From Capsicum annuum (lineage: Eukaryota; Streptophyta; Magnoliopsida; Solanales; Solanaceae), in NCBI RefSeq assembly GCF_002878395.1, contig NC_061115.1, forward strand, positions 158,027,160 through 158,091,159: a stretch of 64,000 bases of DNA, written 5' to 3'. Both the position numbers and the translations under genes were made by a program. The notes under the pieces were generated by a model. That model worked only from the letters and a program-made list of their open reading frames with translations, had not been told where the DNA came from and did not search any database. Shown piece by piece: positions 1,578 through 52,839 of the stretch (positions are counted from its first letter, which is position 1; every line of letters begins with the position of its first letter).

Positions 1578-2014
1578 TGTAACACCCTAATTTTTTCTGA
1601 ATCAGAATGCTATACGGTGCTCATGACCCCGAAGGACCACAAGCTAACCCATGATTGATATCTGTACCTGTATACTGCATAATATACATAAAATATTGAA
1701 ACATGAACATGAAAGGCCATAAGGTTCGAACTGAATAAACGTCTGATAACAAAATGTCTGAAAAAGATATAATAATACCAAAAACAAGTCATAAATATTG
1801 AAAATACTGAGATCTGAATATCTAATCTGACATCTAGTCTGAAAGCCTCTAACTGAACTGAATAAGGAGTTGAAGGAACATGTCTCCAACTAACTCCATC
1901 TAGCAATTAAATAGTAAATATAGCAATAATCATATCGTCCTTGAATGAGAAGGACTCACTACAAACTCTGAACACTGGAATACTACTGCTGATCTGGAGC
2001 TCGTGCCTCTGAAC

Positions 2015-2045
2015 CTATGGTGTACTATAAGAGAAAGCACCATAG
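2015..2045 (-). other. Conserved LTR hairpin 2 (element A copy)
   Basis: CTATGGTG at 2015-2022 pairs perfectly with CACCATAG at 2038-2045 around a 15-nt loop. The element C copy at 20211-20241 keeps the same stem. The equivalent place in D, G, F, H, I and B has a shorter hairpin with loop GTCTCAT and a different stem, so pairing is kept while bases change. Right copy in A (8229 area) retains only the inner six pairs. Confidence 0.6.
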
Positions 2046-2629
2046 CTCAAATGCGTTAGTACGTCTGAATGTACTGAGTATACGAGTGAGGTAGACTAAA
2101 TGCAAAGGGTTATATGCATGAACAATGCTGACCACTATGAACGTGAGAATATATATATGCATACATAACTTTGACTGAACTCGTGGAGATACTGACTACT
2201 GATCTGAATACTGACAACATGAGTGTACTGATAGTGAGATACTGAATAGATGAACGACTATTTTTGAAAGTTTGAATTAAGAAGAAATGGTCTGATTGAC
2301 TGTGTCTAATAATCATGAAATTGAGTACTATAGTATAAGTTCTGAGATCAGGTAATAATGATAACATGAGTGACTGTATCTGACAATCCTGAATCTGATA
2401 GAACTATCTGAGTCCCGTACTGTATCTGAGTTGACTGTATCTGAAAGTCCTGATATACTGAAAACTGAAGGACTATCTGAGTTCTTTACTGAGATTGGGT
2501 GACTGTAGCTGACAGTCCTAAAATTTGTAACTGAAAAAATGGGAAGTAGTTGTTTAACCGACATTCCCCATATGTGCCATTATGTCTAAGATGGGGTCCA
2601 ATCTCTGCCCTGAATAGAAGGGTGTCAAT

Positions 2630-2870
2630 ACCGCACCACTGGTAAGGACAACATGTGAGCAACCCTCATATAATAGGTAACTCTAGTGAGAATGGTGGGA
2701 ACCCTCATATAACAGGTTAAGCCACCTCATCTACCCTCATATAATAGGCTACGGCGTCTTAACCTGTGCTGGCTACATAGTTCTGGAACTTAGGGATTGC
2801 TTCAAAGGATCTCAGTCCTAATCTAGCGGGTGAGTCCCCATCCTTAGGATCACTCGGTGCTGAATCCTAC
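2630..2870 (-). repeat. Hairpin-module cluster in A 3' LTR
   Basis: The core ACCCTCATATAAYAGGT occurs at about 2661, 2700 and 2734, with different flanks that often pair: GAG/CTC around the first, GTGG/CCAC around the second. At about 2808-2845 a related module, CTCAGTCCTAATCTAGCGGG then TGAG, matches the modules of element C. The right LTR has the same cluster at about 8870-9060. Constant loop with variable complementary stems is seen directly; function is unknown. Confidence 0.55.
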
Positions 2871-3039
2871 TCCCATCTGAAAGACACTGAACTAAATAAC
2901 TGGGCTGAACTGAACTGATTAGTTGAACTATACTGATTAACTAGATTGATACTCGTGGTATTTTTTAGCAGAGCTAAACTAAGTTTACTGGATTCTAATG
3001 ACTGACAAAAAGTACTGAGTTCTAAGGACTGGTTGAGAG

Positions 3040-3180
3040 TACTGAAGTTACTGAGATTGACTTTGAATACTGAGGTTACAGATATTACAGAGTACTGAGA
3101 TCACTGAGATTACTGAACTACTGAGATTACTGAGCATTGAGATTACTGAGAATACTGAACTACTAAGATTACTAAGTTTC
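3040..3180 (-). repeat. Degenerate ACTGAGATT microsatellite-like array (A 3' LTR)
   Basis: A run of ACTGAGATT, ACTGAACT and ACTGAGG units with irregular 8-11 base spacing. The same array is in the right LTR (about 9260-9420) and in both LTRs of element C (21345-21490 and 25320-25475), so it was part of the common ancestral LTR and did not arise locally. Confidence 0.7.
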
Positions 3181-3948
3181 TCTGAGTCACATGACTGACT
3201 GAATTATATAGATCATGGCTTGACTGAGAGTATCGTGAAAACATGACATGGCTCTAGGCACACAACTATAAATTTTCAGGTACAAGTACCCCCAGGACTC
3301 GATGGAAGGAAACTGTCACACATGACTGACTTAATCATAAGAGTAGAGTCCATAATCCACAATTTCATAAATAAGGGATTTCATACTAAGCATGGTTCTC
3401 AACAATCTATTTCATGGAAGGGAATTTCATACAACATGTCTATACTTGCATAACTTTCAATATCATGCTCATTACATAGTACAACCACAATCCATAATAT
3501 CATAACTTGGGGAATTTCATGAAATACATGGGTATTCTACATCTTGTACATGAGTAGGTTTTGCAAGTAAGCATAGCAATATTCAATAATACTAGTTCAT
3601 TAGTAATCCAATAGTGTTCATAAGACACATTATCAACATGTATGACATTGAATCATAGAGGCCTATCATGAATTCTTTCCTTAGTCACAATTTAGCTATA
3701 ACACATGATTTCTAGTCTCTTAGGTATTTTATCAAACACTTTACATGCACAATTTAGGCATAGGAGTATATCATACAATTACTCATCATAAATGATCAAA
3801 CTTACATGTTTTAAACTCATATGATGTCACAGATTCATAATAATGCATAAAGATTCTATCTTGGCATCATTCAACATATAAACATGATCAACAATCCATT
3901 CATAACATGAACATCATATTATATAGTTTTAGAAAAGGGTTCTTGAAC

Positions 3949-3993
3949 TTCATGGACGAAAAGAGTCCATGAATGAAGACACGCATACCTTAG
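3949..3993 (-). other. Conserved hairpin 1 with donor-like motif (A 3' LTR)
   Basis: TTCATGGAC (3949-3957) and GTCCATGAA (3965-3973) form a perfect 9-bp stem around a loop that reads TCTTTTC on the minus strand. Eleven bases away on the transcribed-strand upstream side lies CTAAGGTATG (reverse of 3984-3993), a good match to a plant 5' splice site AG/GTATG. The same pair of signals occurs in the LTRs of B, C, D, F, H and I. Confidence 0.65.
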
Positions 3994-4261
3994 AAAGAAA
4001 ACCTTGATGATTTGCTGGAGAGTTCTTGAATTGGGAAACTTAATTCTTAATTATCTTGAAAAAAGGCTTGAATCTCACTTTTGAGAGATGAGTTTGATGG
4101 AAACCCTAATCTTGTGGTTGAGAGTGTATGAGAGAGGATTTTGAGATGTTTAACTAAAAAGAATGGAAGATAATGCGTACCTTGAGGGTTATAAGTCATG
4201 GGAAGTTAAGGAAAAAGACCAAAATACCCTTATGAAATAAATTCCCAGTTGCTAAAAATCA

Positions 4262-4496
4262 TAGATGACGACATTTGTGACAAGGCATCAAAAATGTGGT
4301 AAGCTACCACGATGTCGTCACACAGAAGCTGGTTTCTGCCTAAGGCTGATGACCTTCGTGGTAAGGCGTCACAAATGTGGTAAGCTACCATGAATATCAT
4401 CACTTAGGATCTGGTTTCTGCCTAAGGCTGACGACCTTCATGGTAGGGCATCACAAATGTGGTAAGCTACCACAAATGTCATCACACAGTTTCCAG
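4262..4496 (-). repeat. Three 82-bp tandem repeats with internal hairpins (A 3' LTR)
   Basis: Units start near 4267, 4349 and 4430 (period 81-82). Each contains a GACGACaTTtGTGgtA arm and a TACCACgAAtGTCGTC-like arm around AAGGCATCACAAATGTGG, so each unit can fold into a stem of about 14-16 pairs. The right LTR carries the same three units at 10502-10735. They are much richer in GC than the surrounding sequence. Confidence 0.75.
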
Positions 4497-4840
4497 CCTA
4501 ACATGCTGGAATAAAATAGGAATAACTCTTTGCTCCAATATCGTATTTAGGCAAAATTGATATTGTTGGTAAGCTAATTAAATTATATATCTATTTATAG
4601 GTCCTGAGCTAAAAAATTCTAAGTATAATGAGAGATGTGCCCATTCAAATTTGACTATACCAATATCTTTCTCAAGAATTCAATCGATAAGGAATGTTTT
4701 GATTCGTCTGGTAGCTGGGAGTTGTTTGAAGCCTTAATATACATCTAAATTAATCATAAAACTATAAAATAACCATGATGTACTATGCATGAGCTTGGTA
4801 CATGGCTCTAATATTGGTTTGGATTTTTTAGGGTATTGTA

Positions 4841-4853
4841 ATATCTCCCCCTT
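4841..4853 (-). other. Polypurine tract of element A
   Basis: On the minus strand AAGGGGGAGATAT directly precedes the 3' LTR. This is the primer for plus-strand DNA synthesis and fixes the orientation of the element. The preceding ATTCGAGGACGAATG is the same block that precedes the tract in H (39020-39036) and, decayed, in B (19265-19275). Confidence 0.85.
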
Positions 4854-7786: not shown

Positions 7787-10184
7787 AGTTTGTAACACCC
7801 CAATTTTTTCTGAATTGGAATGCTACATGGTGCTCATAACCTCAAAGGACCACAAGCTAACCCATGACTGATATCTGTATCTGTATACTGTATAATATAC
7901 ATAAAATTTAGAAACATGAACATGAAAGGCCATAAGGTTCAAACTGAATAAATGTCTGATAACAAAATGTCTGAAAAAGGTATAACAATACAAAAAATAA
8001 GTCATAAATACTGAAAATAATGAGATCTGAATATCTAATCTGAATCTAGTCTGAAAACCTCAAACTGAACTGAATAAGGAGTTGAAGGAACATGTCTCTA
8101 ACTAACTCCATCTAGCAACTGAATAGTAAATGTAGCAATAATCATATCATCCTCAAATGAGAAGGACTCACTGCAAAATCTGAACACTGGAATGCTACTG
8201 CTGATTTAAAGCTCATGCCTCTGAACCTATGGTGTAAAATAAGAGAAATAACCATAGCGTAAATGTGTCAGTACGTTTGAATATACTGAGTATACGAGTG
8301 AGGTAGGCTAAATGCAAAAGGTTATATGCATGAACAATGCTGACTAATATGAAAGTGAGAATATATACATTCATAAATAACTGTGACTAAACTCGTGGAG
8401 ATACTGGCTACTGGGTCTGAATACTGACAACATGAGTGTACTGATACTGAGATACTGAATAGCTGAACGACAATTTTTAATAGTTTGAATTATGAAGAAC
8501 TGGTCTGATTGACTGTGTCTAACAGTCGTGAAACTGAGTACTGATAGTATAAGTTCTAAGAACTGGTAATAATGATAACATGAGTGACTATATCCGACAA
8601 TTTTGAATTTGGTGGAACTATGTGAGTCCCTTACTATATCTAAGTTGATTGTATCTGACAATCCTGATATACTGAAAACTGAAGGACTATCTAAGTTCTT
8701 TACTAAGATTGGGTGACTGTAGCTGACAATCCTGAAATCTATAACTGAAACTGTGGGAAGTAGTTGTTTAATCGACATGCCCCATATGTGCCATTATAGA
8801 TAATATGAGGTCCAATCTCTGCCCTGACTGGAAGGGTGTCAATACCGCGCCACTGGTAAGGACAATATTTAAGCAACCCTCATATAATAGGTAACTCTAG
8901 TGAGAATGTGGGAACCCTCATATAACAGGTCAAGCCACCTCATATTCCCTCATATAACAGGCTGTGATATCTTAAACTATGCTAGCTACATAGTTCTGGA
9001 ACTTAGGGATTGCTTCTCAAGATGTCAGTCCTAATCTAGCAGGTGAGTCCCCATCCTTAGGATCACTCGATGCTGAATCCTACTCCCATCTGAAAGACAC
9101 TGAACTAAATAACTGGGCTGAACTGAATAACTAAACTGAACTAATTAGCTAAACTGATACTGATTAACTAGATTGATACTAGTGGTATTGTTTAATGGAG
9201 CTAAACTAAGTTTACTGGATTTTGATGAATGACGAAAAGTGCTGAGTTCTGAGAATTGGTTGAGAGTGCTAAAGTTACTGAGATTGACTTTGAATACTGA
9301 GGTTACAGATATTACAGTGTATTGAGATCACTGAGATTACTGAACTACTGAGATTACTGAGGTTACTGAGCATTGAGATTACTAAGAATCCTGAACTACT
9401 GAGATTACTGAGTTTTCCTGAGTCATATGACTGACTGAATTCTATAGATCATGGCTTGACTGAGAGTATCATGAAAACATGACATGGCTCTAGGCACACA
9501 ACTATAAATTTTCATGTACAAGTACCCCCAGGACTCGATAGAAGGAAACTGACACACATAACTGACTTGATCATAAGAGTAGAGTCCATAATCCACAATA
9601 TCATAAATAAGGGATTTCATACTAAGCATGGTTCTCAACAATCTATTTCATGGAAGGGAATTTCATACAACATGTATATACTTGCATAGCTTTCAATATC
9701 ATGCTCATTACATATTACAACCACAATCCTTAATATCATAACTTGGGGAATTTCATGAAGTATATGGGTATTCTACATCTTGTACATGAGTGGGTTTTGA
9801 AATTAAGCATAGCATAATTCTATAATACTAGTTCATGAGTACTCCAACAGTGTTCACAAGACACATTATCAACATGGATGACATTGAATCATAGAGGCCT
9901 ATCATGAATCATTCCCTTAGTCACAATTTAGCTATAATTCATGATTTATAGTCTCTTAGGTATTTTATCAAACACCTTACATGCACAACTTAGGCATAGG
10001 TATAAATCATACAATTACTCATCATAAATAATCAAACTTACATGTTTTAAACTCATATGATGTCACAGATTCATAATAACACATTAAGATTCTATCTTGG
10101 CATCATTCAACACATAAACATGATCAATAATCCATTCATAACATGAAAACCATAATATATAGTTTTAGAAAAGGGTTCTTGAAC

Positions 10185-10229
10185 TTCATGGACGAAAGGA
10201 GTCCATGAATGAAGACATGCATACCTTAG
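10185..10229 (-). other. Conserved hairpin 1 with donor-like motif (A 5' LTR)
   Basis: TTCATGGAC (10185-10193) pairs without mismatch with GTCCATGAA (10201-10209); the loop on the minus strand is TCCTTTC. The donor-like CTAAGGTATG is the reverse of 10220-10229. Both A LTRs keep all nine pairs although the flanking sequence has diverged. Confidence 0.65.
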
Positions 10230-10501
10230 AAAGAAAACCTTGATGATTTGCTGGAGAGTTCTTTGATTGGGAAACTTAATTCTTGACTATCTTGGAAAAA
10301 AAGGCTTGAATCTTGCTTTTGAAAGATGAATTTGATAGAAACCCTAATCTTGTGGTTGAGAGTGTATGAGATAGCTTTTTGAGATGTTTAACTAAAGAGA
10401 ATGGAATATAATACGTTCCTTGAGGGTTATAAGTCGTGGGAAGTAAAGAAAAAAGACCAAAATACCCTTATAAAATAAATTCCCAGTTGCTGAACATCAT
10501 A

Positions 10502-10735
10502 GCTGACGATATTTGTGACAAGACATCAAAAATGTGGTAAACTACCACGAATATCATTACACACAAGCTTGTTTCTACCTAAGGATAATGACCTTCGTGG
10601 TAAGGCATCACAAATGTGGTAAGCTACCATGAATGTCGTCTCTTAGGTGATGGTTTCTACCTAAGGCTGACGACCTTTGTGGTAAGGCATCACAAATGTG
10701 GTAAGCTACCACGAATGTCGTCACACAGTTTCCAG
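10502..10735 (-). repeat. Three tandem hairpin repeats (A 5' LTR)
   Basis: Same 81-82 base units as at 4262-4496. The last unit is the best preserved: GACGACCTTTGTGGTA and TACCACGAATGTCGTC pair in 14 of 16 positions around AAGGCATCACAAATGTGG. Confidence 0.72.
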
Positions 10736-11079
10736 CCTAACATGCTGGAGTAAAATAGGAATAACTCTTTGCTTCGATATCGGATTTAGGCAAAGTTGGT
10801 ATCGTTGGAAATATAATTCAATTATATATCTGTTGATTGATCATGATCTCAAAAATTCCAAGTATAATGAGAGATATCCCTATTTGAATTTGACTATACT
10901 AATATCCTTCTCAAGAATTCATTTGGTAAGGAATGTTTTGATTCGTCTGATAGCTGGGAGTTATTTGAAGCCTTAATATAAATCTAACTTAATGGTAAAA
11001 CTATAAAAGAACCATGATGTACTGTGCATGAGATTGGTACATGGCTCTAATATTTTTTTGAATTTTTTGGGCTATTACA

Positions 11080-11719
11080 ATCTCGCAGAAGCATGAGTTT
11101 CTCATGACACCTATTCTTGAGTTAGAGTTGTTTGATGTATGGGGTATTGATTTCATGGGTCCATTTGTGAGTTCTTATGACATAAAGTATATATTGATGG
11201 CATTTGACTATATTTCCAAATGGGATAAAGTGGTTGCACTTTCTAATAATAAGGGTCGCAGTGTCATGACATTTTTTTAAAAAATATATTCTTTTAGTTT
11301 GGTACTCCACATGTTATCATTAGTGATGGTGGGTCTCATTTTTGTAAGGCCCTGTTTGAGAAGTATGGGGTGAAACATAAGGTGGCAATACCTTACCATT
11401 CACAAACAAGTAGGCAGGTTGAGGTCTTCAATCATGAGATCAAGTTCATATTGGTGAAGACTGTGAATGCTAATCGGACTAATTGATCAAGAAAGCTAGA
11501 TGATACACTTTAGGATTATCGGATAACTTCTAAAACTCCCATGGGTGCTTCTCCATAACAGCTTGTGTATGGAAAGGGATCCCATATGTCGGTTGAACTT
11601 GAGCCCAAGGCACTATAGGCATTGAAGAAGTTGAATTTTGAGTGGAGCAATGCTGCAAATCTGAGAATAAGTAACGTAATGAGTTGGATGAATTCTGGCT
11701 ACGATCTTATAAGAGTTTA
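11080..11719 (+). pseudogene. Athila-like integrase catalytic core (element E), between A and B
   Basis: Resumes the E integrase after element A. It reads [20 protein letters not shown], then [20 protein letters not shown]. After a frameshift in a run of A/T near 11270 it continues FGTPHVIISDGGSHFCKALF, KYGVKHKVAIPYHSQ, EVFNHEIKFILVKTVNANRT and KLDDTL. The three catalytic acidic residues are still visible (D of IDF, D of ISDGG, E of FNHEIK), but stops and the frameshift make it a pseudogene. The frame stops at 11719 in a KSLYKEK-like stretch where element B begins and picks up again at 28535. Confidence 0.92.
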
Positions 11720-19800: not shown

Positions 19801-20210
19801 CGATTTTCTAAACTAGAATGCTACACGGTGCTCATGACCCTAAAGGACCACAAGCTAACCCATGACTGATATCTGTACCTGTAACTGCATAATATAATAA
19901 TAAAAATGCGGAAACATGAACTAAAAGTCCATAAGGTTCAATCTTGAACAATAAAATGTCTGAATAAGGTGGTATCACAGTACCAAAATAAACTGAAAAT
20001 ACAAATGTCTGAATCTAAAAAATCTGTAATTATCTGAAAGCTCCTAAACTGTCTAAATAAGGAGTTGAAGGAACATGTCTCCAACTAACTCCTTAAACTA
20101 AAAATAAACTAAAATACTGGAATAATAATTTTAATGATCATGTCCTCGAAAGATGAGGACTCGCTGCTAACTGAACTGCTATTGCTGGTCTGGAATCTGT
20201 GCCTTAGAAC

Positions 20211-20241
20211 CTATGGTGTAATATAAAAGAAAGCACCATAG
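20211..20241 (-). other. Conserved LTR hairpin 2 (element C copy)
   Basis: CTATGGTG (20211-20218) pairs perfectly with CACCATAG (20234-20241), the same stem as in A, at the same relative place as the GTCTCAT-loop hairpins of B, D, F, G, H and I. Confidence 0.6.
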
Positions 20242-20529
20242 TGCAAATACGTCAGTATAACTAAAGTACTGAGCATACGTGGGGATAGGCTAAATGCATG
20301 GGGTTTATATGTATGAACATACTGACTAATATGAATGTGAGAATACATACATACATACGTAACTGCTACTGAACTCATAGAGATACTGACTACTGAGGTT
20401 GAACTCTGACAACATGAGTTTCATGATACTAAGATACTGAATGACTGATAACATGGATGACTGTATCTAACAGTCCTAATTCTGGGGGGAACTATCTGAG
20501 TTCCAAACTGTACCTGAATATCAAAGTAT

Positions 20530-21225
20530 GAGATCTGTCCTAGCTAACGAGTGATCTTTGAAACTGATAATGAGAATGCTCAACTGAATCTGAGATTGAG
20601 ATCAAGCCTATCTGCCGGGTGATCTCTATATCTAATAATAAGCATCTGAATATGAGACCGAGCCTATTTGATGGGATGGTCCCTGAAGCAATGGAACTAT
20701 TAGAGTTCCTCACTGTATCTGAGTATCTGAATCTAAGATCAGTCCTAGCTAATGGGTGATCTTTGAATGCACTGATAAATAAGAATGACTTACCTTAGTC
20801 TGAGATCAGTCCTACCTAATGGGTAATCTCTAAATCTGATAATACTGATAAGAATTCACTGTGTCTAACGGTCCTGATTCTATACTACTGAGCTGAGTTG
20901 ACAGTATCTGACAGTCCTGATTTCTATAACTGAAACTGTGGGATATATTCATCCAACTGACATGCCCCATGCTAAGCTGACTGTGGTCCAATATCTGCCC
21001 TAACTGGAAGGGTGCCAGTACCGCGCTACCAGTAAAGACAACTGTTGTGGAGTCAGTCCTAATCTAGCGGGTGACTCCTGGGATTAGTCCTATACATATA
21101 AATATGCAAATGGGTGATCCCTAAGTATGTCAGTCCTATCTAACGGGTGACATCTCATACCTACGCTAGCTACGTAGAACTAAGGGATTTCTTCTAAGGA
21201 TCTCATTCCTCACTGGCGGGTGAGT
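20530..21225 (-). repeat. Array of eight constant-loop / variable-stem hairpin modules
   Basis: Each module is a short inverted repeat around a centre close to GTCCTANCTAACGGG. Perfect stems include GAGATCA/TGATCTC (20598-20604, 20620-20626), AAGATCA/TGATCTT (20735-20741, 20757-20763), GGAGTCA/TGACTCC (21049-21055, 21072-21078) and ATGTCA/TGACAT (21127-21132, 21148-21153). Others have one mismatch or wobble: 20531-20557, 20654-20683, 20802-20830, 21080-21121. A last CTCA/TGAG module is at 21202-21224. The right LTR holds the same set at about 24490-25200. Confidence 0.75.
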
Positions 21226-22311
21226 CCCCATCCCTAGGCTCGCTCGGTGCTGAATCTTACTCCTATCTGAAAGACACTGAACTGAACTGATTAACTGAAC
21301 TTACTGAGTTCCATGGTTGATGGAATACTACTTAGTTCTTGAGATTACTGAGAGTACTAACTTTCTGAGATTACTGAGATTAACTGAGCGTAATTGAGAT
21401 TACTAAGATTAACTGAGTATAACTAAGATTACTGAGATAAACTGAGCATAACTGAGATTACTGAGCTACTGAGACTACTGAGAATTCTGAGTCACATGAG
21501 TAACTGAATTCTATAGATCATGGCTTGACTAAGAGTATCGTGACAACATGTCATGGCTCTAGGCACACAACTATATTTTTCGGGTACAAGTACCCCCAGG
21601 ACTCGATGGTAGGAAACTGACACAACTTGACTTTCTTGAGTACATGACCATCAATAACAATTCATAATACATGAGTGAGGGATTTCATGAAGTAAATGGC
21701 CATCATAATATCTAACATGAATAGGAATGCTTATGATCAAGTCATAAATATCATATTCTAATATCATGGGTATTCCGACAATATATACTATTCATAACAA
21801 TGGCATAGAAACTATTAACCATAAGGGAATAGCAAACATGTAACATTTAGTTCATATTGTAATAATTTGGAGATAACTCATGTGATACTTCAAAATCATG
21901 ATCTTGTTCCTAGCATAGAAGACATATAGACACACTATAAATCCATTCCCCAATCATCATGTATATTCCATTAACACATATATTGCACAACAATGACAAG
22001 TGAGCTCTTTGAACATAATACACTATCATGAATTTATCATATAGTTCACCCCTAAGTTATAATACAAGATTTTTATCATTCTAGGCATTTTATCAAACAC
22101 CTTACATGCATAATATTGAGCATAGGTGTACTTAACAAACTTAGAAATCTTGAACCACCCAAAGTCATGGGTTTCCAACTAACATGCCCATACACTTCTT
22201 GTAAACACATTTAGATACCTTATTGAAACACAATTGACAACCATCAATATGAACATAATCACACAACAACATAAAGATCATAATTTATTATTTAAAACAT
22301 GGTTCTTGAGC

Positions 22312-22357
22312 TCCACGGATGAAAGGGATCCATGGATGAACACTACGCATACCTTAG
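22312..22357 (-). other. Conserved hairpin 1 with donor-like motif (C 3' LTR)
   Basis: TCCACGGAT (22312-22320) and ATCCATGGA (22328-22336), nine pairs with one C-A mismatch on the plus strand that becomes a G-U pair on the transcribed minus strand. Loop on that strand is CCCTTTC. Donor-like CTAAGGTATG is the reverse of 22348-22357. The right LTR copy is at 26293-26338. Confidence 0.66.
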
Positions 22358-22559
22358 AAGGAAGATTCTTGATGATTGACGGAGGAATTTCCTTGAACTT
22401 GAATCTTCTATAAAAACCCTACCTTGTGTTCTTGATAGGATTTTGAGAGAAAGAATATGTTTTGGTGAAATAAGGGCTTAATTCTATGTTTAGGCATTAT
22501 ATAGGGGTGGAAAAAGGACTATTTTACCACAAAAATGGACTATTTAAGTCACCTGGACA

Positions 22560-22660
22560 CCCACATGTGTGGCACACACTTTATCACACATATTAGGGTT
22601 TGCATCGCACATCTTATTGCACATATTAGGGTGTGCGTCGCACACCTTATGTCAGGCCAC
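22560..22660 (-). repeat. GC-rich palindrome and CACACCTTAT/ATATTAGGG repeats (C 3' LTR)
   Basis: GGTGTGCG, T, CGCACACC is a perfect 17-base palindrome at 22630-22646, within two or three repeats of CACATATTAGGGTRTGC. The right LTR keeps it at 26611-26627. It sits where A has the 82-bp hairpin units and B the four-unit array. Confidence 0.7.
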
Positions 22661-22740
22661 GTACTCCACTTTGCAAAGTCATAACTTCTTTCTTAGGTAT
22701 CGAATTTGGATAAAATTGGTATCGTTGGAAAGATAATTCA

Positions 22741-23747
22741 AATATCTCCCATTTGGGAACATTCATCCTCGAATAAGACTAACTGATAGGGGAGAAAGAC
22801 TACTGATGTGAGTACTGAACATGAACGACTGAACATGATTACATGACTGACATGACTGAAAACTGATCATATCATACTATACATACATATCTGATGCTGG
22901 GTAGCTAATTTATGAATGTAGGATTGAGTTTTTTGACAAACTGAGTTTCTCAAACTTTGAATGCATATCTGATGCTGAACTAATAAGTTGAATCCATGCA
23001 TATCTGATGCATGATTATATGACTGACATGATACGTGAATGCATGACTGAAAGTACTGATAAGCTCACCACGCATATCTGATGTGTGAATACATAATTGA
23101 ACTGACTCATGAACATGCGATTGAACATGCAATGGTAAAGGCACTAAGATTGAACTGAAACATAAGAACATAACTGATTCTGCTATGTGACATATGGACT
23201 GAACATTATGAACTGAACTGAACCTCTGAATACTTGACTTACAGCTGAGGTCTAACTTGAAGGTCAACTTATGAGTACCCTCTATTCTAGACTGAATTCA
23301 TTATGCAAGGAGAAATTGAAGGATCTAAGGCATGTGAGCATTAAGAGAAAGTGGGGTATCTCCCCCTTGGGATGCTATGTCCCTCTAAGAATTCTTACCT
23401 TACGGAGATACTGGGTGATGCACAGGGCATCTACGAACTAGATTATAACTAAACTTCGGGGGTCTGAAACTAATGCATGATATGGATTGATCTTGCAATT
23501 ACTAGGAGGTTCTACCTTGAAATAGTTACATTCTCTAAGATTTTGGATAGGATGAATATATGCAAGGATGAAAAAAAAAGCTATACAAAGTTGACTGCTC
23601 ACTAGCACGACATGAATACTAAAAGAAGAGAGACTGCACCTAAAACATCTTGTAGCCTCTTGTACATAAATATGGCGTGCAACACAACCATGCACAAGAC
23701 TCTACTAGATGCGGCTTTCATACTTCCTAGGACTTTATTGAACCTTA
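22741..23747 (-). other. Non-coding interior of element C
   Basis: Starts (on the plus strand) with the decayed purine tract ATATCTCCCATTTGGG and ATTCATCCTCGAAT. 22850-22980 aligns with 4950-5100 of A. An internal duplicate tract TATCTCCCCCTTGGG is at 23357-23368, like A at 5611. The leader block, with TAGCCTC at 23653-23659, is 106 bases from the LTR. No protein motif; the open frames at 22980-23267 and 23438-23695 look accidental. Confidence 0.7.
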
Positions 23748-23760
23748 GGCTCTAATACCA
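23748..23760 (-). other. Primer binding site of element C
   Basis: Minus strand TGGTATTAGAGCC, one C-to-T change from the initiator-Met complement, four bases from the 5' LTR boundary at 23765. Confidence 0.85.
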
Positions 23761-23764
23761 AGTT

Positions 23765-26700
23765 TGTAATGCCCCGATTTTATAAATCGGAATGCTACAC
23801 GATGCTCATGACTCCGAAGAACCACAAGCTAACCCATGACTGATATCTGTACCTATAACTGCATAATATACATATAAAAATGCGTAACCATAAACTAAAA
23901 AGCCATAAGGTTCAATATTGAACAATAAAATTTCTGAATAGGTGGTATCACAGTACCAAAACAAAATAAAAATACAAAAGTCTGAATCTGAAAACTCTGT
24001 AATCATTTGAAAGCCCTTAAACTGTCTGAATAAGAAGTTGAATGAACATGTCTCCAACTAACTCCTTAAACTGAAAATAAACTAAAATACTAGAATAATA
24101 ATTGTAATGATCATGTCCTCAAAAGATGAGGACTCACTGCTAACTGAACTGCTACTGCTGGTCTGGAATCTATGCCTTAGAACCTATGGTGTAACATAAA
24201 AGAAAGCACCATATCACAAATGCGTCAGTACAACTGAGTATACATGGGGGTAGGCTAAATGCATGGGGTGTATATGCATAAACATGTTGACTAATATGAA
24301 TGTGAGAATACATACATACATACGTAACTGCTACTGAACTCGTGGAGATACTGACTACTGAGGTTGAACTCTGACAACATGAGTTTTATGATACTGAGAT
24401 ACTGAATGACTGATAACATGGATGACGGTATCTAACAGTCCTAATTCTGGGGGAACTATCTGAGTTCCAAACTGTACCTGAATATCTAAGTCTGAGATGA
24501 GTCCTAGCTAATGGGTGACCTTTGAAACTAATAATGAGAATGCTCAACTGAATTTGAGATTGAGATCAAGCCTATCTTTGGGGTGATCTCTATATCTAAT
24601 AATAAGCATTTGAATATAAGACCAATCCTATCTGACGAGATGGTCCTTGAATCAATGGAACTATTGGAGTTCCTCACTGTATCTGAGTATTTGAATCTAA
24701 GATCAGTCCTAGCTAACGGGTGATATCTGAATACACTGATAAATAAGAATGACTTACCTTAGTCTGAGATCAATCCTACCTAATGGGTGATCTCTAAATA
24801 TGATAATACTGATAAGAATTCATCGTGTCGAACGGTCCTGAGTCTGTACTACTGAGCTGAGTTGATTGTATCTGGTAGTCCTGATTTATATAACTGAAAC
24901 TGTGGGATATATTTATCTAACTGACATACCCCATGCTAAGCTGACTGGGGTCTAATATCTGCCCTAACTGGAAGGGTGTCATTACCGCACTATGAGTAAA
25001 GACAACTGCTGTGGAGTCAGTCTTAATCTAACGGTTGACTCCTGAGATCAGTCCTATACATATAAATATGCTAATGGGTGATCCCTGAGTATGTCAGTCC
25101 TATCTAACGGGTGACATCTCATACATACACTGGCTACGTAGTTCTGGAACTTAGGGATTTATTCTAAGGATCTCAGTCCTCATTAGCGGGTGAGTCCCCA
25201 TCCCTAGGCTCGCTCGGTGCTGAATCCTACTCCCATCTGAAAGACACTGAACTGACCTGATTAAATGAAGTTACTAAGTTTCATGACTGATGAAATACTA
25301 CTGAGCTCATGAGATTTCTGAGAGTACTAACTTTCTGAGATTACTGAGATTAACTGAGCATAATTGAGATTACTAAGATTAACTGAGCATAACTGACATT
25401 ACTGAGATTAAGTAAGCATAACTGAGCATAACTGAGATTACTGAGACTACTGAGACTACTGAGATTTCTAAGTCACATGAGTAACTGAATTCTATAGATC
25501 ATGGATTGACTAAGAGTATCATGACAACATGTCATGGCTCTAGGCACACAACAATATTTTTTGGGTACAAGTACCCCCAGGACTAGATGGAAGAAAACTG
25601 ACACAACTTGACTTTCTTGAGTACATGACCATCAATAACAATCCATAATACATGAGTGAGGGATTTCATGAAGTAAATGGTCATCATAATATCTAACTTG
25701 AATAATAATGCTTATGATCGAGTCATAAATATCATATTCTAATATCATGGGCATTTCAACAACATATACTATTCATAACAATGGCATGAAAACTATTTAA
25801 CCATAAGGGAATGGCAAACATGTAACATTTAGTTCATATTATAATAATTTGCGGATAACTTATGTGATACTTCAAAATCATGATCTTGTTCATAGCATGG
25901 AAGACATATAGACACACTATAAATCCATTCCCCAATCATCATGTACATTCCATTAACACATATATTGCACAACAATGACAAGTGAGCTCTTTGAACATAA
26001 TAGACTAGCATAAATTTATCATATAGTTCACCCCTAAGTTATAATACATGATTTTTATATTCTAGGTATTTTATCAAACACCTTACATGTATAATATTGA
26101 GCATAGGTGTGCTTAACAAATTTAGAAATCTTGAACCACCCAAATTCATGGGTTTCCAACTAACATGCCCATACACTTCTTGTAAACACATTTAGATACC
26201 TTCTTTTAACACAATTAACAACCATCAACATGAACATAATCACACAACAACATAAAGATCATAATTTATTATTTAAAATATGGTTCTTGAGCTCCACGGA
26301 TGAAAGGGATCCATGGATGAACACTACGCATACCTTAGAAGGAAGATTTTTGATGATTGACGGAGGAATTTCCTTGAACTTGAATCTACTATAAAAACCC
26401 TAGCTTGTATTCTTGATAGGATTTTGATAGAAAGAATATGTTTTGGTGAAATAAGGGCTTAATTCCGTGTTTAGGCATTATATAGGGGTGGGAAAAGGAC
26501 CATTTTACCCCAAAAATAGACTATTTAAGTCACCTGGACACCAACATGTGCGGCGCAGACTTTATTGCATATATTAGGGTATACATCGCACATCTTATCG
26601 TACATATTAGGGTGTGCGTCGCACACCTTATCGCACACCTTATGTCAGGCGACGTACTCCACTTTGTAAAGTCTTAACTTCTTGCTCGGGTGTTGGATTT

Positions 26701-27020
26701 GGACGAAATTAGTATCGTTGGAAAAATAATTCAAAGATATTTCATTTGATATATAGTAAGCCCTCTAATTCAATATAGATAAGGAGTTATGATCGAGTGA
26801 ATTTTACCCAAGTTTTGATGCTCACTAAAACTTGAAGATAGGAAAGCTTTCAAATTGTACTTGATTTAGGGAACGTCTATAATCTAAACTCATGCTCAAA
26901 TAGATTTACACACTGCATAATTGATTAACACACTAAATTTAGATAGGATTTGAGGCTTTTGAAAGGTCTACGCATAGAAATGACGGACTTTCATTCTGGT
27001 CTAAAATATGGGATATTACA
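23765..27020 (-). repeat. Element C 5' LTR (right, complete)
   Basis: TGTAATGCCCCGATTTTA to GGATATTACA, 3256 bases. Carries the hairpin modules at 24490-25200, ACTGAGATT array 25320-25475, hairpin 1 at 26293-26338 and the palindrome at 26611-26627. Its terminal 285 bases (26736-27020), missing from the left copy, end in a typical TTACA. Confidence 0.88.
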
Positions 27021-39054: not shown

Positions 39055-42000
39055 TGTAATACCCCGAGAATTCCAACCAATAATAGAACCATGCTTCAAA
39101 CTCATGAGAAACAAATTTTAGTGATTTGGTAGTTTTATGATCCAAGTTTGATGTGTATTAAGGCCTCAAATATGTCCTAGCTATTAGGCGAATCAAAACA
39201 TACCTTACCGATTGAATTCTTGAGAAGGATATTGGTATAGTCAACTTCAAATGAGTATATCTTTCGTTATACTATGAATATCTGAGCTCATGACACACCA
39301 ACAGATATATAATTGAATTATATTTTCAATAATTCCAATTTCTCCAAAATCCATTATCGGGGTAAAAATTTATGGCCATTTTACAGTGAGCAATCTGGAC
39401 TGCCAAAGTGCGACGAGAAGGCTGACTAAGGCAGTAAACCCATTTTCTGGCCATAAAGCAATGGTTTAAGGGATGGTCCATACCTGGGGCGATGAGGCGT
39501 CGCCCAAAGCATCCCGCACCTCCGTTTAGCGATTAAAAGCCTTTTTAAAGGAATTTTTGGGTATTTTTCACCCTTTTTAACATCTAATTACATCAAATCA
39601 AAGCACATAACTTCATATTCATCCATAGCATCAAAAATTAGGGCACCTTTCAAGATGAACCCTCAATAAAAAGGTTCAAACCCTTCTTCAAGAAAACTCA
39701 AGAATCAAAACATCACCATTCAAGAACTTTCAAGAAAAGCCTCCAAGAACATTTACAAGGCTTCAAAAGTCAAATTGTTCCATTGAATCAAGCCAAATAA
39801 GGTATGTGGGTTTGAAAAAGAACAATTCTTTTGTTCTTGTGCTCAAAGATTTAATTTTTATTAAAGAATTTCTTATTTTTCAAAGTGGAATAATGCCCAA
39901 TTTACTTGTTTTCAATTTATGAAATTATAATTTGTTGAAGTCTTTAAATTGCATGTCATTTCACTTATTTATGTTTAAATTTGAGAATTTATACCATGGA
40001 TTGCACATCCCTATGATGATTTGATATTGCCAAGTGTTTCAAAGATAAATGTCAAGATTTAAGCTTTATTATGAAGTTGTGGTCATTTGAGTATAAATTT
40101 ATATATGAGTTTAAGAATCAAGTAAGAATTTTGATGTACCATGAAGAGTATGTTGTTGGTATACTTTAACAAATAAGTATCTCAATCTTTTTTAAAGAAA
40201 TGTTGATCATTGATCCTAAGCTAAGATAGGAATCCACATTATTTCGATATAAGGCAAAGACAGGCAAAGTTGGCTACTATTATACATTATTGTACTAATT
40301 AAGGTGGATTTTCCTAGAAGTTCTGAGCTTAAGTATGGGAGCAGTATTAAGCACCGAGTTGGGTATGATTCCAAGGTCGCATACCCAAGAACTATGAGAC
40401 ATGGTAGGATTATAATTTACCCCATGTGAGTTAAGATAGTGATCACTAAAGTTAAGGTTCTATTCCGTTAGCAAGGGTAGAATAACTCTCCCCAATGTGG
40501 GCAACATGTTGGACTCCATGTCAGCTCACATGGTTTATATCGGTTAGAAGAAACTCCCAAAGTTCTATAATCCCTAAGTTTCAAAAGAAGTCCCCTATTC
40601 TCCTTAAAATGAATGTATTTGTTTTGAAAGCTATTGTTTTAAGATTTGCCAAGTTCCTAGAGTCTCCAAGTCTCCAAAGTTGCATAGTCCTAAAGTTCCC
40701 CAGTCCTTGTATTCCCAAAGTCCTATTCTCTTCAAGATAAAAGCATAAGTTTTGAATGTTATTGTTTTAAGATTCCTTTTTGCTTACAAGCTTTGAGAAT
40801 AAGGGTGTGTTTGGTATGATGGAAAATATTTTCCATGGAAAATGTTTTCTTGGAAAATGTTTTCTTGGAAAATAAGTTGGTTTTCTATTTATTTTCTCAT
40901 GTTTGGTTGGTGAATGGAAAATATTTTCCGAAAAATATTTTATGGTGTTTAGTTGGTGAGTAGAGAGTATTTTTTAGAAAAATATTTTCTAGTGTTCGAT
41001 TGATGAGTGAAAAAATATTTTTTTAGAAAATACTACTATCTATTAACTAGTATATCAGTGTCTCTAGCAACTCAACAATTTGTAAGAACTTATTTAAGCA
41101 TAACAAATAATATCAATATCGAATACTAAAATATTACACTCACTAAATTTAAGCAACTATTAATTAACAAATATAGGAGACACTTTTCAAAATTTTGTTA
41201 GGACAATCTCAAGATACTACAATTAATAGAAATATAACAGAACGACAAACTTATTCAACCTCGTGAAACAAGTTACATCGATAACAAAATGAAATATGCA
41301 ATTAACAAAAGTAACATAAGTCTTCCTCTATTCATATGAAAATAACAATATATTCAACAAATTGAAAATGAAAAAAATTCGGGCTTCATTATTTTTTATT
41401 TCAAACAGTGAAAAATTGAAGCAAAGCACAGCGAAAAACATTTCTGAGTAATGTAAATTTTTTAGAAATGTAAATTTTTTTAGTCATGTGAATATAAGTG
41501 TTGTTGGGGTGGGTATTTTTTTAGTCATGTGAGGTTAGAAGTCACATTTGTCATTTTCTGGAAAATGACTTCCCTTGGCCCATGAGGGACGTCATTTTCC
41601 ATCAAATGGTGGAAAATAAATTGTCTTGAAAAATATTTTCCTAAACTTTTGTTGCAACCAAACAAGGGAAAACCGGAAAATATTTTCTGAAAAATATTTT
41701 CCATCATACCAAACACACCCTAAGAGGAGAATATATATTTTAGAACTAAGTATAATGACTCAAGATATTTATACTACATGTTACATTATTCATGATTTAT
41801 TAGATTTAGAGTTCAGATTTATTCAAGCTATGTGAGTCATTTATATCAGCATGCATGGTTTTATAACGAGTAATGATATTGTTGACTTAATGCATACACC
41901 CTCATATACTCAGTACATCCTCAAAGTACTGATCCACGTATATTTATATATGCTACATTGTCTCATAATGTAGGTACAAGATCTAGTAGGCACATTCAGA

Positions 42001-48004: not shown

Positions 48005-49200
48005 TGTCACGACCCAAGGTCACCCCCTAGTCGCGATAATGGTACTTACGACCACAAGGCCACAAGCTAATCCATGAGCTGGTACCTACTATGAACATTG
48101 AGCAAAGTAGTAATATAATACATGAGCGGAAAATAAACTGACAAGTTACTATAAAACTGAATACTTAAAAATGCAATAAGAACATGTCTGAAATATCTGA
48201 TATAACATTGGGAATCAAACTATCTGTCTGAGCAACTGATAATACTGAAAGAACTGACTGACTGTCTAACTGATTGTCTGATTTTCTCAAAGCCTCTAAC
48301 TGCCTGAGGAGTTGATGGGACAAGCCCTCAACTAACTCTAAATAACTGAACGTAAAGAAATACTGAAATAATTGGGAAAAACATATCATGCCCTCAATGG
48401 ATGAGGACTGACCATTACTATTGCTGAGTAATGCTAAACTGTCTAAGAACAGTTGAGAAACTGTGCATCTGAACCTATGTTATGAGACAACATAGCGCAA
48501 AGAAAAATGTGCGGTTAGTACTTTGAATTTACTTGTATATATGGTAAGGACTGGCTGAAATGCATGGATAACTGAACTTGAATGAATGAACATGTAATAT
48601 CAGAGATGCAAGACCTAGTATAAATATGTTTCTAATAAAAATTTACAATTTGAAAGACTAAAATCTGTATAACTGATTAAATGATAATATGTACACTTGG
48701 TAAGCAAACCTGAACTGAGATACACTGAATTATTGACTGAAACTATAGGAGCTATCATGTAATTGACATAAACCAGTTGAACTATCATTGAGTCCAATGT
48801 CTGACCCATGTTGAGGAGAACTGGATGCAACAGCCCCACAATGATGCAGTCTTATTGTGATTATAGAATTCACTCACCATGATGCGGTCAGCATGAAGTT
48901 GATACTAGCTACCTCGATGCGGGCTTATCGCAGAGACTAACTATTTCTGTGATCCAAACATGCCCCAAACCTTGTCCAAAAATTACAAAACTCCTTCAAG
49001 ACATACTTCATACATCCCTACACATTAATTACCTCAAAAACCAATGTATCGAGGTTGGGAAGACCAAAATAAAAATCCTCAAAGTTTAGGGGTCTTGAAA
49101 ATGACTAAATCCCTAACACTTATTGAAAATTTCAAGCCTTAAGCCCTTTATGTATATAACTAGGAGTTGAATCGGGCTAAGAATATTATGGGGTATTACA
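48005..49200 (-). repeat. Element D 3' LTR with internal deletion
   Basis: TGTCACGACCCAAGGTCACC to GGGGTATTACA, 1196 bases. Relative to the right copy it has lost the segment equal to about 54264-55350; the joint is at TTGAGGAG/AACTGG near 48818, with AG microhomology. Hairpin 2 is perfect here: CTATGTT (48475-48481), AACATAG (48489-48495), loop GTCTCAT on the minus strand. The deletion removed hairpin 1. Confidence 0.9.
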
Positions 49201-49404
49201 TATCTCACCCTAGGGAACATTCGTCCTTAAATGAGGCTGGTTAGACTGAGAGTATTAAGGTAACTGAGATCTATTCTGAACATGCATAACTTGGAACATG
49301 ATTTCATAACTGAGTTTGAAGCATGATACATGAATTGAACTGATTTCATGAATGCATGTAATGACACGCGAATGGTTACATAGGTGAAACTGAGAATGAA
49401 AAAG
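49201..49404 (-). other. D 3' UTR and decayed purine tract
   Basis: TATCTCACCCTAGGG next to the LTR is the tract on the minus strand (CCCTAGGGTGAGATA), one purine broken by T. The chromodomain expected before it is missing. Confidence 0.7.
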
Positions 49405-50870
49405 AGTCAATCTAAGGACCTTAACCAAAGGAACTTCTTTATTCCTTAGCCTACGAATCTGACGATGAAGGATCTCAACTAGGACTTCCTCGAAGGAAAG
49501 GCTATCTTTAACATCCATATCTTCCAAATGAACCACTACATCTGAATCTCCAATACATTTCTTTAATAACAAAACATAGAACACCGGATGCACTAATGCC
49601 AAATCTACTGGCAACTCAAGCTCATAAGCTACCTTCCCAAAACGGTTCAAGATTATATAAGGGTTAACATATCGGGGACTCAGTTTCCCCTTCTTGCCAA
49701 CTCTCTTCACTCCCTTTATAGGCAAAATTTTCAAATAAACTAAATCACCAACTTCAAATTCAAGATCTCTTCTCCTCACCTCTGCATAAGATTTCTGACA
49801 ACTTTGGGCTATCTTCATCCTCTCTCGAATCAACTAAACCTTCTTCATTGCCTCAAACACTGAATTTGGCCCTATCACTTTAGCCTCACCTGGTTTAAAC
49901 CAACTAATAGAAGATCTACATCTCCTCCCATAGAGAGCCTTAAATGAAGCCATCTTAAAACTGAAGTGATAACTATTGTTGTGAGCAAACTCAATAAAAG
50001 GCAAGTGGTCATCCCAACTACCTTTAAAGTCAATAACACATGCTCTCAACATATTCTCTACGGTCTGAGTGGTCCTTTCTGCCTGACTATCTATTTGAGG
50101 ATGAAAAGCTGTGCTGAGATGAACTTGGGTACCAAAACCCTTCTGAAAATCCTTCCAAAAGTGAGAGGTAAATAGAGTACCTCTATCTAAAATGATAGAC
50201 AATGGAACCCAATGCAGTTAAACTAACTCTCAGATAGAGTCTAGAATAATCCTCAGTTGAATACGACGTATGAACTAGAAAGAAATAGGTTGACTTGGTC
50301 ATTCTAGCAACAATCACCCAAATCAAATTATGTTGACGACACGTACGAGGCAACCCTACCACAAAATCTATGTTTACTACTTCACACTTTGAAGTGGGGA
50401 TGCTGAACTCATGAAGTGAACCACTAGGCCTTTGGTTTTTAACCTTAACCTACTGAAAATTTGGGCACTTAGCCATAAACTCTGCAATAGCCTTCTTCAT
50501 ACCACTCCACAATCATGGTACATCTTAGTGGCTCCTTGATGGATAGAATATCGTACACCATGCACTTCTGCTAAGATCCGCTGCCTTAAACCATCAACAC
50601 ACGGGACATATAACCTACCCTAGAAATAAAGCACACCATCTCACTCTTGGGAGAAAACCTCTACCTTCTGATCTATAATTGTCTCCTTCAACTTAACCAA
50701 ACAAGAATCCCTATCTTGATTTTCTTTTATTTCAGCAACCAAGAAAGATTCCAAACTATTTTGAACGCATATACTACCCTCAATTGAATCAACCAACCGA
50801 ACACCTAATATAGAAAGATGATGAACCTCACTAAATAACTTTATTTTATCTCTCTCAACACGAGCAACAC
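49405..50870 (-). pseudogene. Element D integrase with truncated chromodomain
   Basis: On the minus strand the zinc domain GVRYSIHQGATKMYHD is at about 50520-50570. VNIDFVVGLPRTCRQHN carries the first catalytic Asp. MSIILDRGTLFTSHFWKDF (50202 down) carries the second and DSQAERTTQTVENML the catalytic Glu. Then SWDDHLPFIEFAHNNSYHF, YGRRCRSSISWF and a long clean segment 49833-49255 (RRRDLEFEVGDLVYLKILP, GKKGKLSPRYVNPYIILNRF). The chromodomain begins (EILHRQIRRLRNKEVPLVKV) but stops at VLR near 49412, where UTR sequence follows, so targeting by chromodomain was lost. Confidence 0.92.
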
Positions 50871-51486
50871 TACCCATAGACAATCTACTAAGGGCATCTT
50901 CCACTATATTAGCCTTGCCCGAATGATACAATACACTCATATCATAATCTTTTAACAACTCAAGCCATCTTCTCTAACGAAGATTCATATCTTTTTATGC
51001 GAACACGTACTATAAACTCTTATGATCAGTGAATATATCAACATGAACCCCATAAAAATAGTGACTCCAAATCTTCAAAGCAAAGACAACCACTGCTAAC
51101 TTAAGATCATGGGCAGGATAATTCTTCTCATGGGGTTTAAGTTGTCTATAGGCATAGGCTATGACCTTACCTGTTTACATTAATACACAAACAAGACCAA
51201 CTCTAGAAGTATCACAGTATACTATAAACCCATCTGAACCATCTGGTAAAGCCAAAACTAGGGCAGAAGTGAGTCGAGTCTTTAACTCCTGAAAACTCTT
51301 CTCACATAAATCTAACGACTGAAATTTAACTTTTTCTGAGTCAATCAAGACATGAAGGATAAAATAGAAAAAACCCCTTCAACAAATCGCCTATAAAAGC
51401 CAAGCCAAACCCAAGAAACTCCTGATAACTGATGGAGAGATGGGTCTAGGCTAGTTTCTCACTGCTTTGATTTTTTGAGGGTCAAC
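50641..51486 (-). pseudogene. Element D RNase H and linker
   Basis: Minus strand: [54 protein letters not shown], then LLKDYDMSVLYHSGKANIVE and DALSRLSMGSVARVE (open frame 50958-50641). The family CDAS is CDTS here; FTDH is intact. A few stops replace Gln. Continuous with RT on one side and integrase on the other, same order as in B. Confidence 0.9.
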
Positions 51487-52260
51487 TCAGATTCCATCAC
51501 CAGAAATAATATGGCTAAGGAAAGCTACTGATCTTATCCAAAATTTACACTTGCTAACTTTAGTGAACAACCGATGAGCTCTAAGGGTTTGCAGCATAAT
51601 TCTCAAATTATCTGCATAATTATTCTTACTATGAGAATACACGAGGATATCATCAATGAAGACTATAATGAACATGTCTAAGTACTGCTTAAACACTCTG
51701 TTCATCAAGTCCATAAAAGTTGCAGGGGCATTTGTTAGTCCAAAAGACGTAACTAGAAATTCAAAATGACCATACCGAGTTCTAAAAATTATCTTCGGAA
51801 TGTCATATTCTCTGACTCTAAGCTGATGATAGTCGGACCTGAGATCTATCTTAGAGAAATAACTGGCACCCTGAAGTTGGTCGAACAAGTTATCAATTCT
51901 TGGGAGAGGGTATTTATTCTTGACTATGACTTTGTTTAACTGACGATAATCGATGCACATTGTGAAAAAACCATCTTTCTTGCATAGGACTAATACTGGA
52001 GCACCCCATAGAGAAATACTAGGCCTGGTGAAACCCTTATTTAAGAGATCTTTTAGATGTTCTTTTAACTCTTTAAGCTTAGTTGGATCTATTTTGTAAG
52101 GGGGGAAAAAGATAGGATGGGTATCTAGAAGAGATCTATTTCGAAGTCAATTTCCCTTTTGGGAGAAACTCTGGGAAGATATTCAGGGAACACATCTAGA
52201 AACTCCCTTACTACTGGAACTGACTTGAGACTTGGGGTCTCAAAATTTGATTCTTTGACT
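51487..52260 (-). pseudogene. Element D reverse transcriptase
   Basis: Open from 51960 to 51487: [53 protein letters not shown], then [15 protein letters not shown] with the FIDD catalytic box intact, and [20 protein letters not shown]. The upstream fingers part ([16 protein letters not shown], GFTRP-like) is decayed between 51961 and 52260. One of the best-kept coding blocks of the window. Closely similar to B. Confidence 0.93.
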
Positions 52261-52735
52261 CAGACAAGATAATATACCCTTAGATATCATCTTTCTTGCT
52301 CTAATATAGGAAACAAACTAAAATCTAGGTACTGAAGTACTACCCCTCCATTTGAAGAGTGGTTCATTAGGAAACTAAAATCTACAATCAACTAAGTAAT
52401 AGCATGAGTGAAGCTAATAGATGCCGAGAATGTCGAAATCACTCATCTCTAACTCCACAAGATCAATAAGGTGATTTTCTGAGATACTATAACTAGGTTA
52501 TTTTTGTATACCCATCTGGCTATAATAGATTTACCCACTAGTAGACACTGAGAAAGTCTTTTCTAACGTTTCAGGACTAACACTGAAATCTATAGATAAA
52601 TAAGGATTCACAAAGAAAAGTGAAGCTCCGGGATCTAACAATACATAAAAATAAAAATAAAAAACCTGTAGTGTACCCGTAACTATATCAGGATAACTTT
52701 CTTGATCATGTTAAGTCTGGAGAGCATAAATCCTA
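52261..52735 (-). pseudogene. Element D protease region
   Basis: Decayed aspartic protease between gag and RT on the minus strand. Readable pieces: LLDPGASLFFVNPYLSIDF (active-site region, DPGA), then LSQCLLVGKSIIARWVYKN-like and IVDFSFLMNHSSNGGVV-like. The catalytic Asp is kept. Many stops. Confidence 0.75.
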
Positions 52736-52839
52736 TTCTGACGCTTCCCGTTGTGGCATTGGAAGTGGCACATACAGAGTCGAGCAACCTGCTGAGTTGA
52801 AAAATAATTGGACTGACCCTATTGACCATCATTGCTGCC

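Follow-up and report, generated by a model that had tools for sequence, protein, structure and literature searches.

Hairpin modules with similar loops and covarying stems in the long terminal repeats of a LARD-like pepper element: a tentative packaging signal

The repeated motifs (RM boxes) in the long terminal repeats (LTRs) of Sireviruses, which are Ty1/copia elements, are a described case of multi-copy inverted repeats in plant LTRs (PMC2829016); as far as the accessible text of that paper goes, each element has one consensus palindrome, with a short spacer or none in the examples, located upstream of the TATA box and, Tnd-1 excepted, built on a CGG-CCG core. LARD (large non-coding LTR element) and TRIM (terminal-repeat retrotransposon in miniature) elements, for example Cassandra, lack protein genes and are thought to be moved in trans, and Cassandra LTRs carry 5S RNA sequences (PMC7215508, accessible part). 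In the leader RNA of retroviruses, which are reverse-transcribing elements too, hairpins with GACG tetraloops present a fixed loop on a stem and are involved in packaging and perhaps in dimer stability (PMC516450, accessible part), and the multi-site packaging signals of STNV (satellite tobacco necrosis virus) and MS2 comprise many hairpins that share a loop motif while their primary sequence varies (PMC3662417, accessible part). Here we analyze an array of hairpin modules in both LTRs of an element, termed B, in a 64,000-nucleotide stretch of Capsicum annuum DNA (NC_061115.1, positions 158,027,160–158,091,159; hereafter the window), together with related modules in two other elements of the window, A and Z. 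The array is real and goes beyond chance, and its like loops on stems that change on both sides suggest that the nucleic acid folds and that the fold has been maintained for some purpose.

Each B LTR contains nine modules (M1–M9), and the array in the left LTR spans 20530–21227. A first-pass annotation, made by a model from the sequence letters, had placed this array correctly (20530–21225) but described it as eight modules with a constant 15-base loop; the count came to nine, and the left-LTR loops measured 15 nucleotides in seven modules, 16 in M6 and 28 in M7. Its statement that the right LTR keeps the array (24490–25200) agreed with our result, since the same nine modules were found there. 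The modules are as follows, with arms as read on the plus strand.

20530–20558: M1, left LTR; loop start 20537
20598–20626: M2, left LTR, GAGATCA / TGATCTC; loop start 20605
20654–20683: M3, left LTR, offset pairing only (GACC / GGTC); loop start 20661
20735–20763: M4, left LTR, AAGATCA / TGATCTT; loop start 20742
20802–20830: M5, left LTR, GAGATCA / TAATCTC; loop start 20809
21049–21078: M6, left LTR, GGAGTCA / TGACTCC, 16-base loop; loop start 21056
21080–21121: M7, left LTR, GGGATTA / TGATCCC, 28-base loop with a small internal inverted repeat; loop start 21087
21127–21153: M8, left LTR, ATGTCA / TGACAT; loop start 21133
21161–21177: extra small hairpin between M8 and M9, CTACG CTAGCTA CGTAG
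21198–21227: M9, left LTR, GGA(T)CTCA / TGAGTCC, one-base bulge; loop start 21206
24494–25197: the same nine modules, right LTR; loop starts 24501, 24569, 24625, 24706, 24773, 25020, 25051, 25097 and 25176

Comparison of each arm with the arms of the other modules revealed that the annotated complementarity within modules holds in both LTRs: own arms formed 5.67 of 7 Watson-Crick pairs in the left LTR and 5.33 of 7 in the right, compared with 4.07 and 4.31, respectively, for swapped arms (p ~7e-5 and ~0.002), and the test retained p values of ~0.0015 (left) and ~0.003 (right) when restricted to one stem of each of the six types. Fourteen aligned modules (seven from each LTR, without M3 and M7; 13 distinct rows) gave a covariation score of 0.299, compared with 0.147 after shuffling (reached by none of 500 shuffles) and at most 0.155 when slid. 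Two of the five covariation measures were unexceptional, namely the number of pairs changed on both sides (59 of 500 shuffles reached 4) and the number of further pair types (304 of 500).

The excess of pairing was also found in wider sets. Thirty-seven candidates collected by the loop-core pattern alone, one copy per element group (B1, B2, B3, A and Z) and including some clear non-modules, paired with their own arms at −5.35 kcal/mol on the plus strand and −6.42 kcal/mol on the sense (minus) strand, compared with −3.39 and −3.89 kcal/mol for other arms; none of 100,000 permutations was as good on either strand. For 16 distinct stems, picked partly by eye, the corresponding values were −7.06 against −3.73 on the plus strand and −7.62 against −3.90 on the sense strand (none of 200,000 permutations), and the own partner ranked first in 7 of 16 and 9 of 16 cases, respectively. 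Moving the arms outward abolished the excess at 12 and at 24 bases (p between 0.12 and 0.91) and, at 36 bases, gave p 0.26 for one strand and p 0.03 for the other, the only nominal value among six. The same loop core outside the arrays in the window showed no excess (84 and 88 cases; p 0.69 and 0.70).

These swap and shift controls disfavor chance combined with shared ancestry, by which an ACTGA-rich LTR would yield inverted repeats and duplication would multiply a few of them; we consider this explanation very improbable, although it has on its side the duplicated block formed by M1–M2 and M4–M5 and the fact that perfect-hairpin counts are only mildly raised. Perfect hairpins with stems of at least 6 numbered 9 in the left array (3.3 expected; maximum of 60 shuffles 8) and 8 in the right array (3.7 expected; shuffle maximum 10), and such counts against shuffles are too blunt a test.

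Matching arms could also arise without selection on folding if imperfect palindromes were made perfect by template switches that occur while DNA is replicated or RNA reverse-transcribed. Quasipalindrome correction of this kind is established in general, and the arms are unconstrained inside family B, as described below. The mechanism leaves two features unexplained, however: the likeness of the loops among modules (mean identity 0.70, compared with 0.59 for arms and 0.42 for flanks; seven left-LTR modules with 15-base loops, 21 pairs), and the recurrence of stems that pair over 7 bp and stop at position eight in M2, M4, M5, M6 and M7 of the left LTR, where the only departures within the stems are one A-C in M5 and one G-T in M7. 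We therefore regard template switching as an improbable source of the array.

Related modules were detected in elements A and Z. A covariance model built from the 14 B modules found a held-out module of A at 38.2 bits; on the held-out M3 and M7 modules the model gave 22.8, 16.0, 16.6 and 10.2 bits, and its best match outside the arrays reached 15.6 bits. The first-pass annotation had assigned A a single module (2808–2845); that module was found at 2806–2839, whereas three more distant ones had been missed.

2662–2839: left LTR of A, modules near 2662, 2700 and 2733 (CCCTCATATAAYAGG loops; the third weak) and at 2806–2839 (B-type loop)
9019–9052: right LTR of A, decayed counterpart of 2806–2839, 20.8 bits

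The relatives with CCCTCWACTAGYAGG that had been reported were present at 63253–63385 and constitute the Z modules, which have GGGTCAC-type stems. The B-only covariance model did not detect them on the plus strand and gave one weak minus-strand match there (11.9 bits, E 0.88).

To this we added 30 B-type and 30 Z-type LTR copies from the same genome, including the two B LTRs and Z of the window, and four further B-type stretches. Judged by eye, the B copies fall into subfamilies that agree over the first half of the array and diverge over the second. At matching places other subfamilies carry GGTCA/TGACC for GGAGTCA/TGACTCC, and at the place of M9 another subfamily has CGGTTC/GAA(A)CCG instead of GGA(T)CTCA/TGAGTCC. 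Copies L063 and L064 have AGG(A)AGTCA/TGACTCCT around a loop that encloses a second inverted repeat; other copies carry AGGAAATCA where these two have TGACTCCT, which is one pair worse. Since other self-complementary stems occupy matching places in other families, pairing rather than a fixed sequence is what has been conserved over the long time scale. In L064 (~165–500), the M1–M3 block occurs twice in tandem (~205 bases), and arrays seem to grow by block duplication.

Several other structures lie among or beside the modules. The small hairpin between M8 and M9 (loop CTGGCTA; 66 loci) has CTGCG/CGCAG as its commonest stem in subfamily B2, yet in only 5 of 19 copies, and its middle pair is A-T in nearly all of the B1 (11 copies) and Z rows listed (15 of 30 copies). 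A second class of hairpins has a five-base loop (ATCTG, ATCTA or AGCTG) and variable stems such as GACTGT/ACAGTC, GGAACT/AGTTCC and AAGGACT/AGTTCTT, and occurs at 20465, 20494 and 20906, and also at 2378, 2475, 2507 and 8653; a search for this class (ATCTR) yielded a few good stems, in small numbers. Beside M9, a linear block, CCYTRGGNTCRCTCGRTGCTRAATCYTACTCC, is conserved in A, B and Z (21232–21263, 25202–25233, 2842–2873, 9055–9086 and 63397–63428) as sequence and not as a module stem.

The window is crowded with nested LTR elements, and the orientation of those that carry modules was determined from the following features.

1578–4845 and 7791–11084: LTRs of element A
19801–22755, minus strand: left LTR of B (3′ LTR in element sense), ends approximate
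22493–22507, minus strand: TATA-box-like CCCCTATATAATGCC, left LTR of B
23748–23760, minus strand: primer-binding site (PBS) of B, immediately beyond the right LTR; plus-strand complement GGCTCTAATACCA
23765–26748, minus strand: right LTR of B (5′ LTR in element sense), beginning with TGTAATGCCCC on the plus strand
26474–26488, minus strand: TATA-box-like CCCCTATATAATGCC, right LTR of B
62279 to window end: partial element Z

The left LTR of B matches 23775–26748 at 91% over 2985 columns. In both A and B the PBS complement stands immediately left of the right LTR on the plus strand, and we take the site of B to match initiator tRNA-Met. The TATA-like box CCCCTATATAATGCC is also present in copies L061 and L062. 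An element of the Z family has one SH3 domain, Tf2-1-like and on the minus strand; none was found in A or B. As the PBS (A, B), the TATA-like box (B) and the SH3 domain (Z family) all lie on the minus strand, the elements run on that strand; this orientation is clear for A and B and probable for Z. The array as first annotated is thus antisense to element B, with hairpins possible on both strands. The annotation had taken a fixed loop with covarying stems as evidence of selection on folded RNA, and the likeness of the loops and the covariation, both within modules and between element groups, stood; that the folded molecule is RNA is a likely reading. An attempt to assign the strand from G-U versus A-C mismatches failed: by eye, shared variants include both kinds, and either can result from C-to-T decay.

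On the sense strand, the left-LTR array starts 1264 and ends 1965 bases downstream of the TATA-like site, and the right-LTR array precedes the primer site in the sense direction; from this we infer that the array belongs to the R/U5 part of the LTR and hence to a long 5′ RNA leader. The short U3 of B carries 33-base repeats with inverted ends (CACACC...GGTGTG) at 22575–22650 and 26554–26637, upstream of the TATA-like site and so nearer in place to Sirevirus-type promoter palindromes.

This position bears on the alternative that the modules act at the DNA level as cis-regulatory palindromes, that is, as sites for DNA-binding factors or for silencing near the promoter, as has been proposed for the Sirevirus motifs. 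Palindrome arrays in LTRs are known (PMC2829016, accessible part), and B itself has the inverted-end repeats upstream of its TATA-like box. A DNA-binding factor should fix its half-sites, however, whereas here the half-sites change while complementarity and loop are kept, and Sirevirus motifs are found upstream of the TATA box, unlike the B array, which follows its TATA-like box at a distance of more than 1.2 kb. We consider a DNA-level role quite unlikely.

Folding on the sense strand gave the nine left-LTR modules a common layout of a lower stem of 5–8 bp, an internal loop, an upper stem of 2–3 bp and a loop. The internal loop is 1 by 2 in five of the nine, and M2 and M7 deviate most. The B module has a CC/GG upper stem and an apical loop usually of 8–9 bases near RYYAGNNRA. 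Among the six folded A and Z modules, the lower stems are 3–8 bp and the upper stem is 4–5 bp in five; the B-type module of A resembles B. Single modules folded better than their dinucleotide shuffles, with mean sense-strand z values of −2.17 (left LTR, n = 9), −1.74 (right LTR, n = 9) and −1.22 (A and Z, n = 6), whereas 60 windows of the same LTR gave −0.16. Rfam returned no match at gathering score in the window, and in the array only TUG1_4 at chance level (26.1 bits, gathering 100, E 0.51). A single array pattern or stretch had no match in viral contigs, in phages and plasmids, or in prokaryote genomes.

Like a LARD, B has an LTR pair, a PBS complement and no recognized coding domain in its interior; neither A nor B gave an interior Pfam match at E 0.01 in the three minus-strand frames. 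As to amplification of the family with its short interior, a genome search showed neighboring B-type matches 4.0–5.2 kb apart at several places, and two slices, L061 and L062, each contained TATA-like sites and a PBS complement together with an LTR repeat. The Tekay/Del (Ty3/gypsy) label that we use for the elements rests in part on LTR ends presumably typical of that group. It is otherwise drawn from the pepper LTR literature (PMC7076952, accessible part).

The folded molecule is most likely the element's own RNA, and an RNA reading of the array is likely. Our best single guess, with a probability of roughly 0.4, is that the array would be a multivalent protein-binding platform in the leader, a packaging (or dimer-forming) signal read by the Gag protein of a coding relative. 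The protein would read the loop and the upper stem, with the lower stem serving only as support; a near-constant loop on changing, complementary stems is what would be expected of such reading. The lower stem, free in sequence, could then undergo compensated drift while the loops stay alike, and several hairpins in a row would provide avidity. Because the interiors of A and B have no recognizable gene, these elements must be moved in trans, which makes the array a candidate for a signal recognized by Gag; the likeliest reader would be the Gag of a coding relative, and the array would act as a multi-site packaging signal serving gene-less elements in trans. Transcription of the array, its reading by a protein and packaging are all inferred here.

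A leader structure with another job would fit the same covariation and position evidence: it could help ribosomes to deal with a long leader (by shunting or internal entry), control splicing or affect RNA stability, or could shield the RNA from small-RNA silencing or feed it. In maize Sireviruses, the palindromic parts of the LTRs are hotspots of small RNAs (PMC5311732, PMC10760457, accessible parts), which lends this alternative some weight. Many like copies in a row would rather suggest a multivalent ligand than one switch. Stems of ~5–8 bp are short for Dicer-like enzymes, which counts against the silencing variant. Overall, we judge another RNA role unlikely, though likelier than the other alternatives to packaging.

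A number of observations weigh against a packaging platform in the leader, or against the structural and positional evidence for it. Folded in its entirety, the 911-base region shows no exceptional stability (z −1.2 and −1.4; 4 of 20 and 2 of 20 shuffles as stable), and the preference for one strand is slight. Module Z-M6 pairs poorly, with 9 of 15 and 11 of 15 other right arms fitting its left arm better. In a comparison at M9 (59 of 62 sequences, excluding L033 and, among the 30 Z loci, two without anchor; L018 and L024 moved from B1 to B2 by hand), the B1 right arm paired at −6.02 with the left arm of B1 itself and slightly better, at −6.70, with that of Z, and the B2 stem (−4.06) was not clearly better than shuffled arms (−3.24). 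An LTR fragment at 53686–54931, related to Z, has the flanking conserved block and, by eye, no modules, so the array is dispensable for some relatives. The TATA-like box is absent from A at up to 3 mismatches and gave only weak matches at Z loci, in two of six; being clear in B only, it leaves the leader position resting on B. No PBS was found in the Z slice L067.

Among 29 B copies (M1–M5), the arms had a nucleotide diversity of 0.082, the loops 0.104 and the spacers 0.087. The first-pass annotation had held that loss of pairing at the neutral rate in other copies would speak against its proposal, and within family B this is in effect what we observed. Stems and loops that vary like spacers within the family are expected of dead copies, since old insertions drift freely; most of the divergence among B copies should postdate insertion, and the neutral-rate comparison is apt for live lineages only. 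Constraint is visible among modules and among element groups, not among B copies.

If the packaging reading is right, plant Ty3/gypsy elements may use a modular, multivalent RNA tag in the leader, with gene-less families riding on the Gag of coding relatives, a generalization that we put forward tentatively and with some doubt. To our knowledge, little is established in plants about how LTR elements without genes are selected for packaging; a small hairpin that can be counted and whose loop hardly varies makes this selection accessible to a direct binding test. The array would also offer a clean natural example of stems that covary among paralogous modules inside one repeat.

Other features of the window are recorded here for completeness. 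The LTRs of element A contain tandem repeats of 82 bases at 4266–4489 and 10520–10722. The right LTR of a further element, G, has an insertion of ~0.9 kb at 40804–41720 and overall contains 55 perfect stems of at least 6 (mean of 24.5 in 20 shuffles). In the region 48005–54931, Z-related LTR fragments flank the remains of a pol gene, with reverse transcriptase and SH3 domains on the minus strand (49258–52146).

The first-pass annotation knew of no described equivalent, which was too strong, as Sirevirus palindromes, LARD/TRIM RNAs, retroviral leader hairpins and multi-site virus signals are near in kind. Among the matches listed in open-access literature, titles and abstract openings contained no description of such an array, and the main text of a pepper LTR survey, in its accessible part, does not mention hairpins or secondary structure (PMC7076952). 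Compared with Sirevirus motifs, the stems of the B array vary inside one LTR, its loops are mostly 15 bases and alike, and it lies downstream of the TATA-like box; a CGG-CCG core pairs the arms in none of the nine B modules, and a Sirevirus-type motif was rejected because core and position both fail. The structures described for LARD/TRIM elements are 5S RNA and a whole-element fold, with no row of constant-loop hairpins in the accessible text (PMC7215508). GACG hairpins have a four-base loop, whereas B has nine modules with an apical loop of 8–9 bases and a CC/GG collar, and a putative function. The signals of STNV and MS2 are dispersed over the genome and tied to an icosahedral coat, whereas the hairpins of B are clustered in the LTR.
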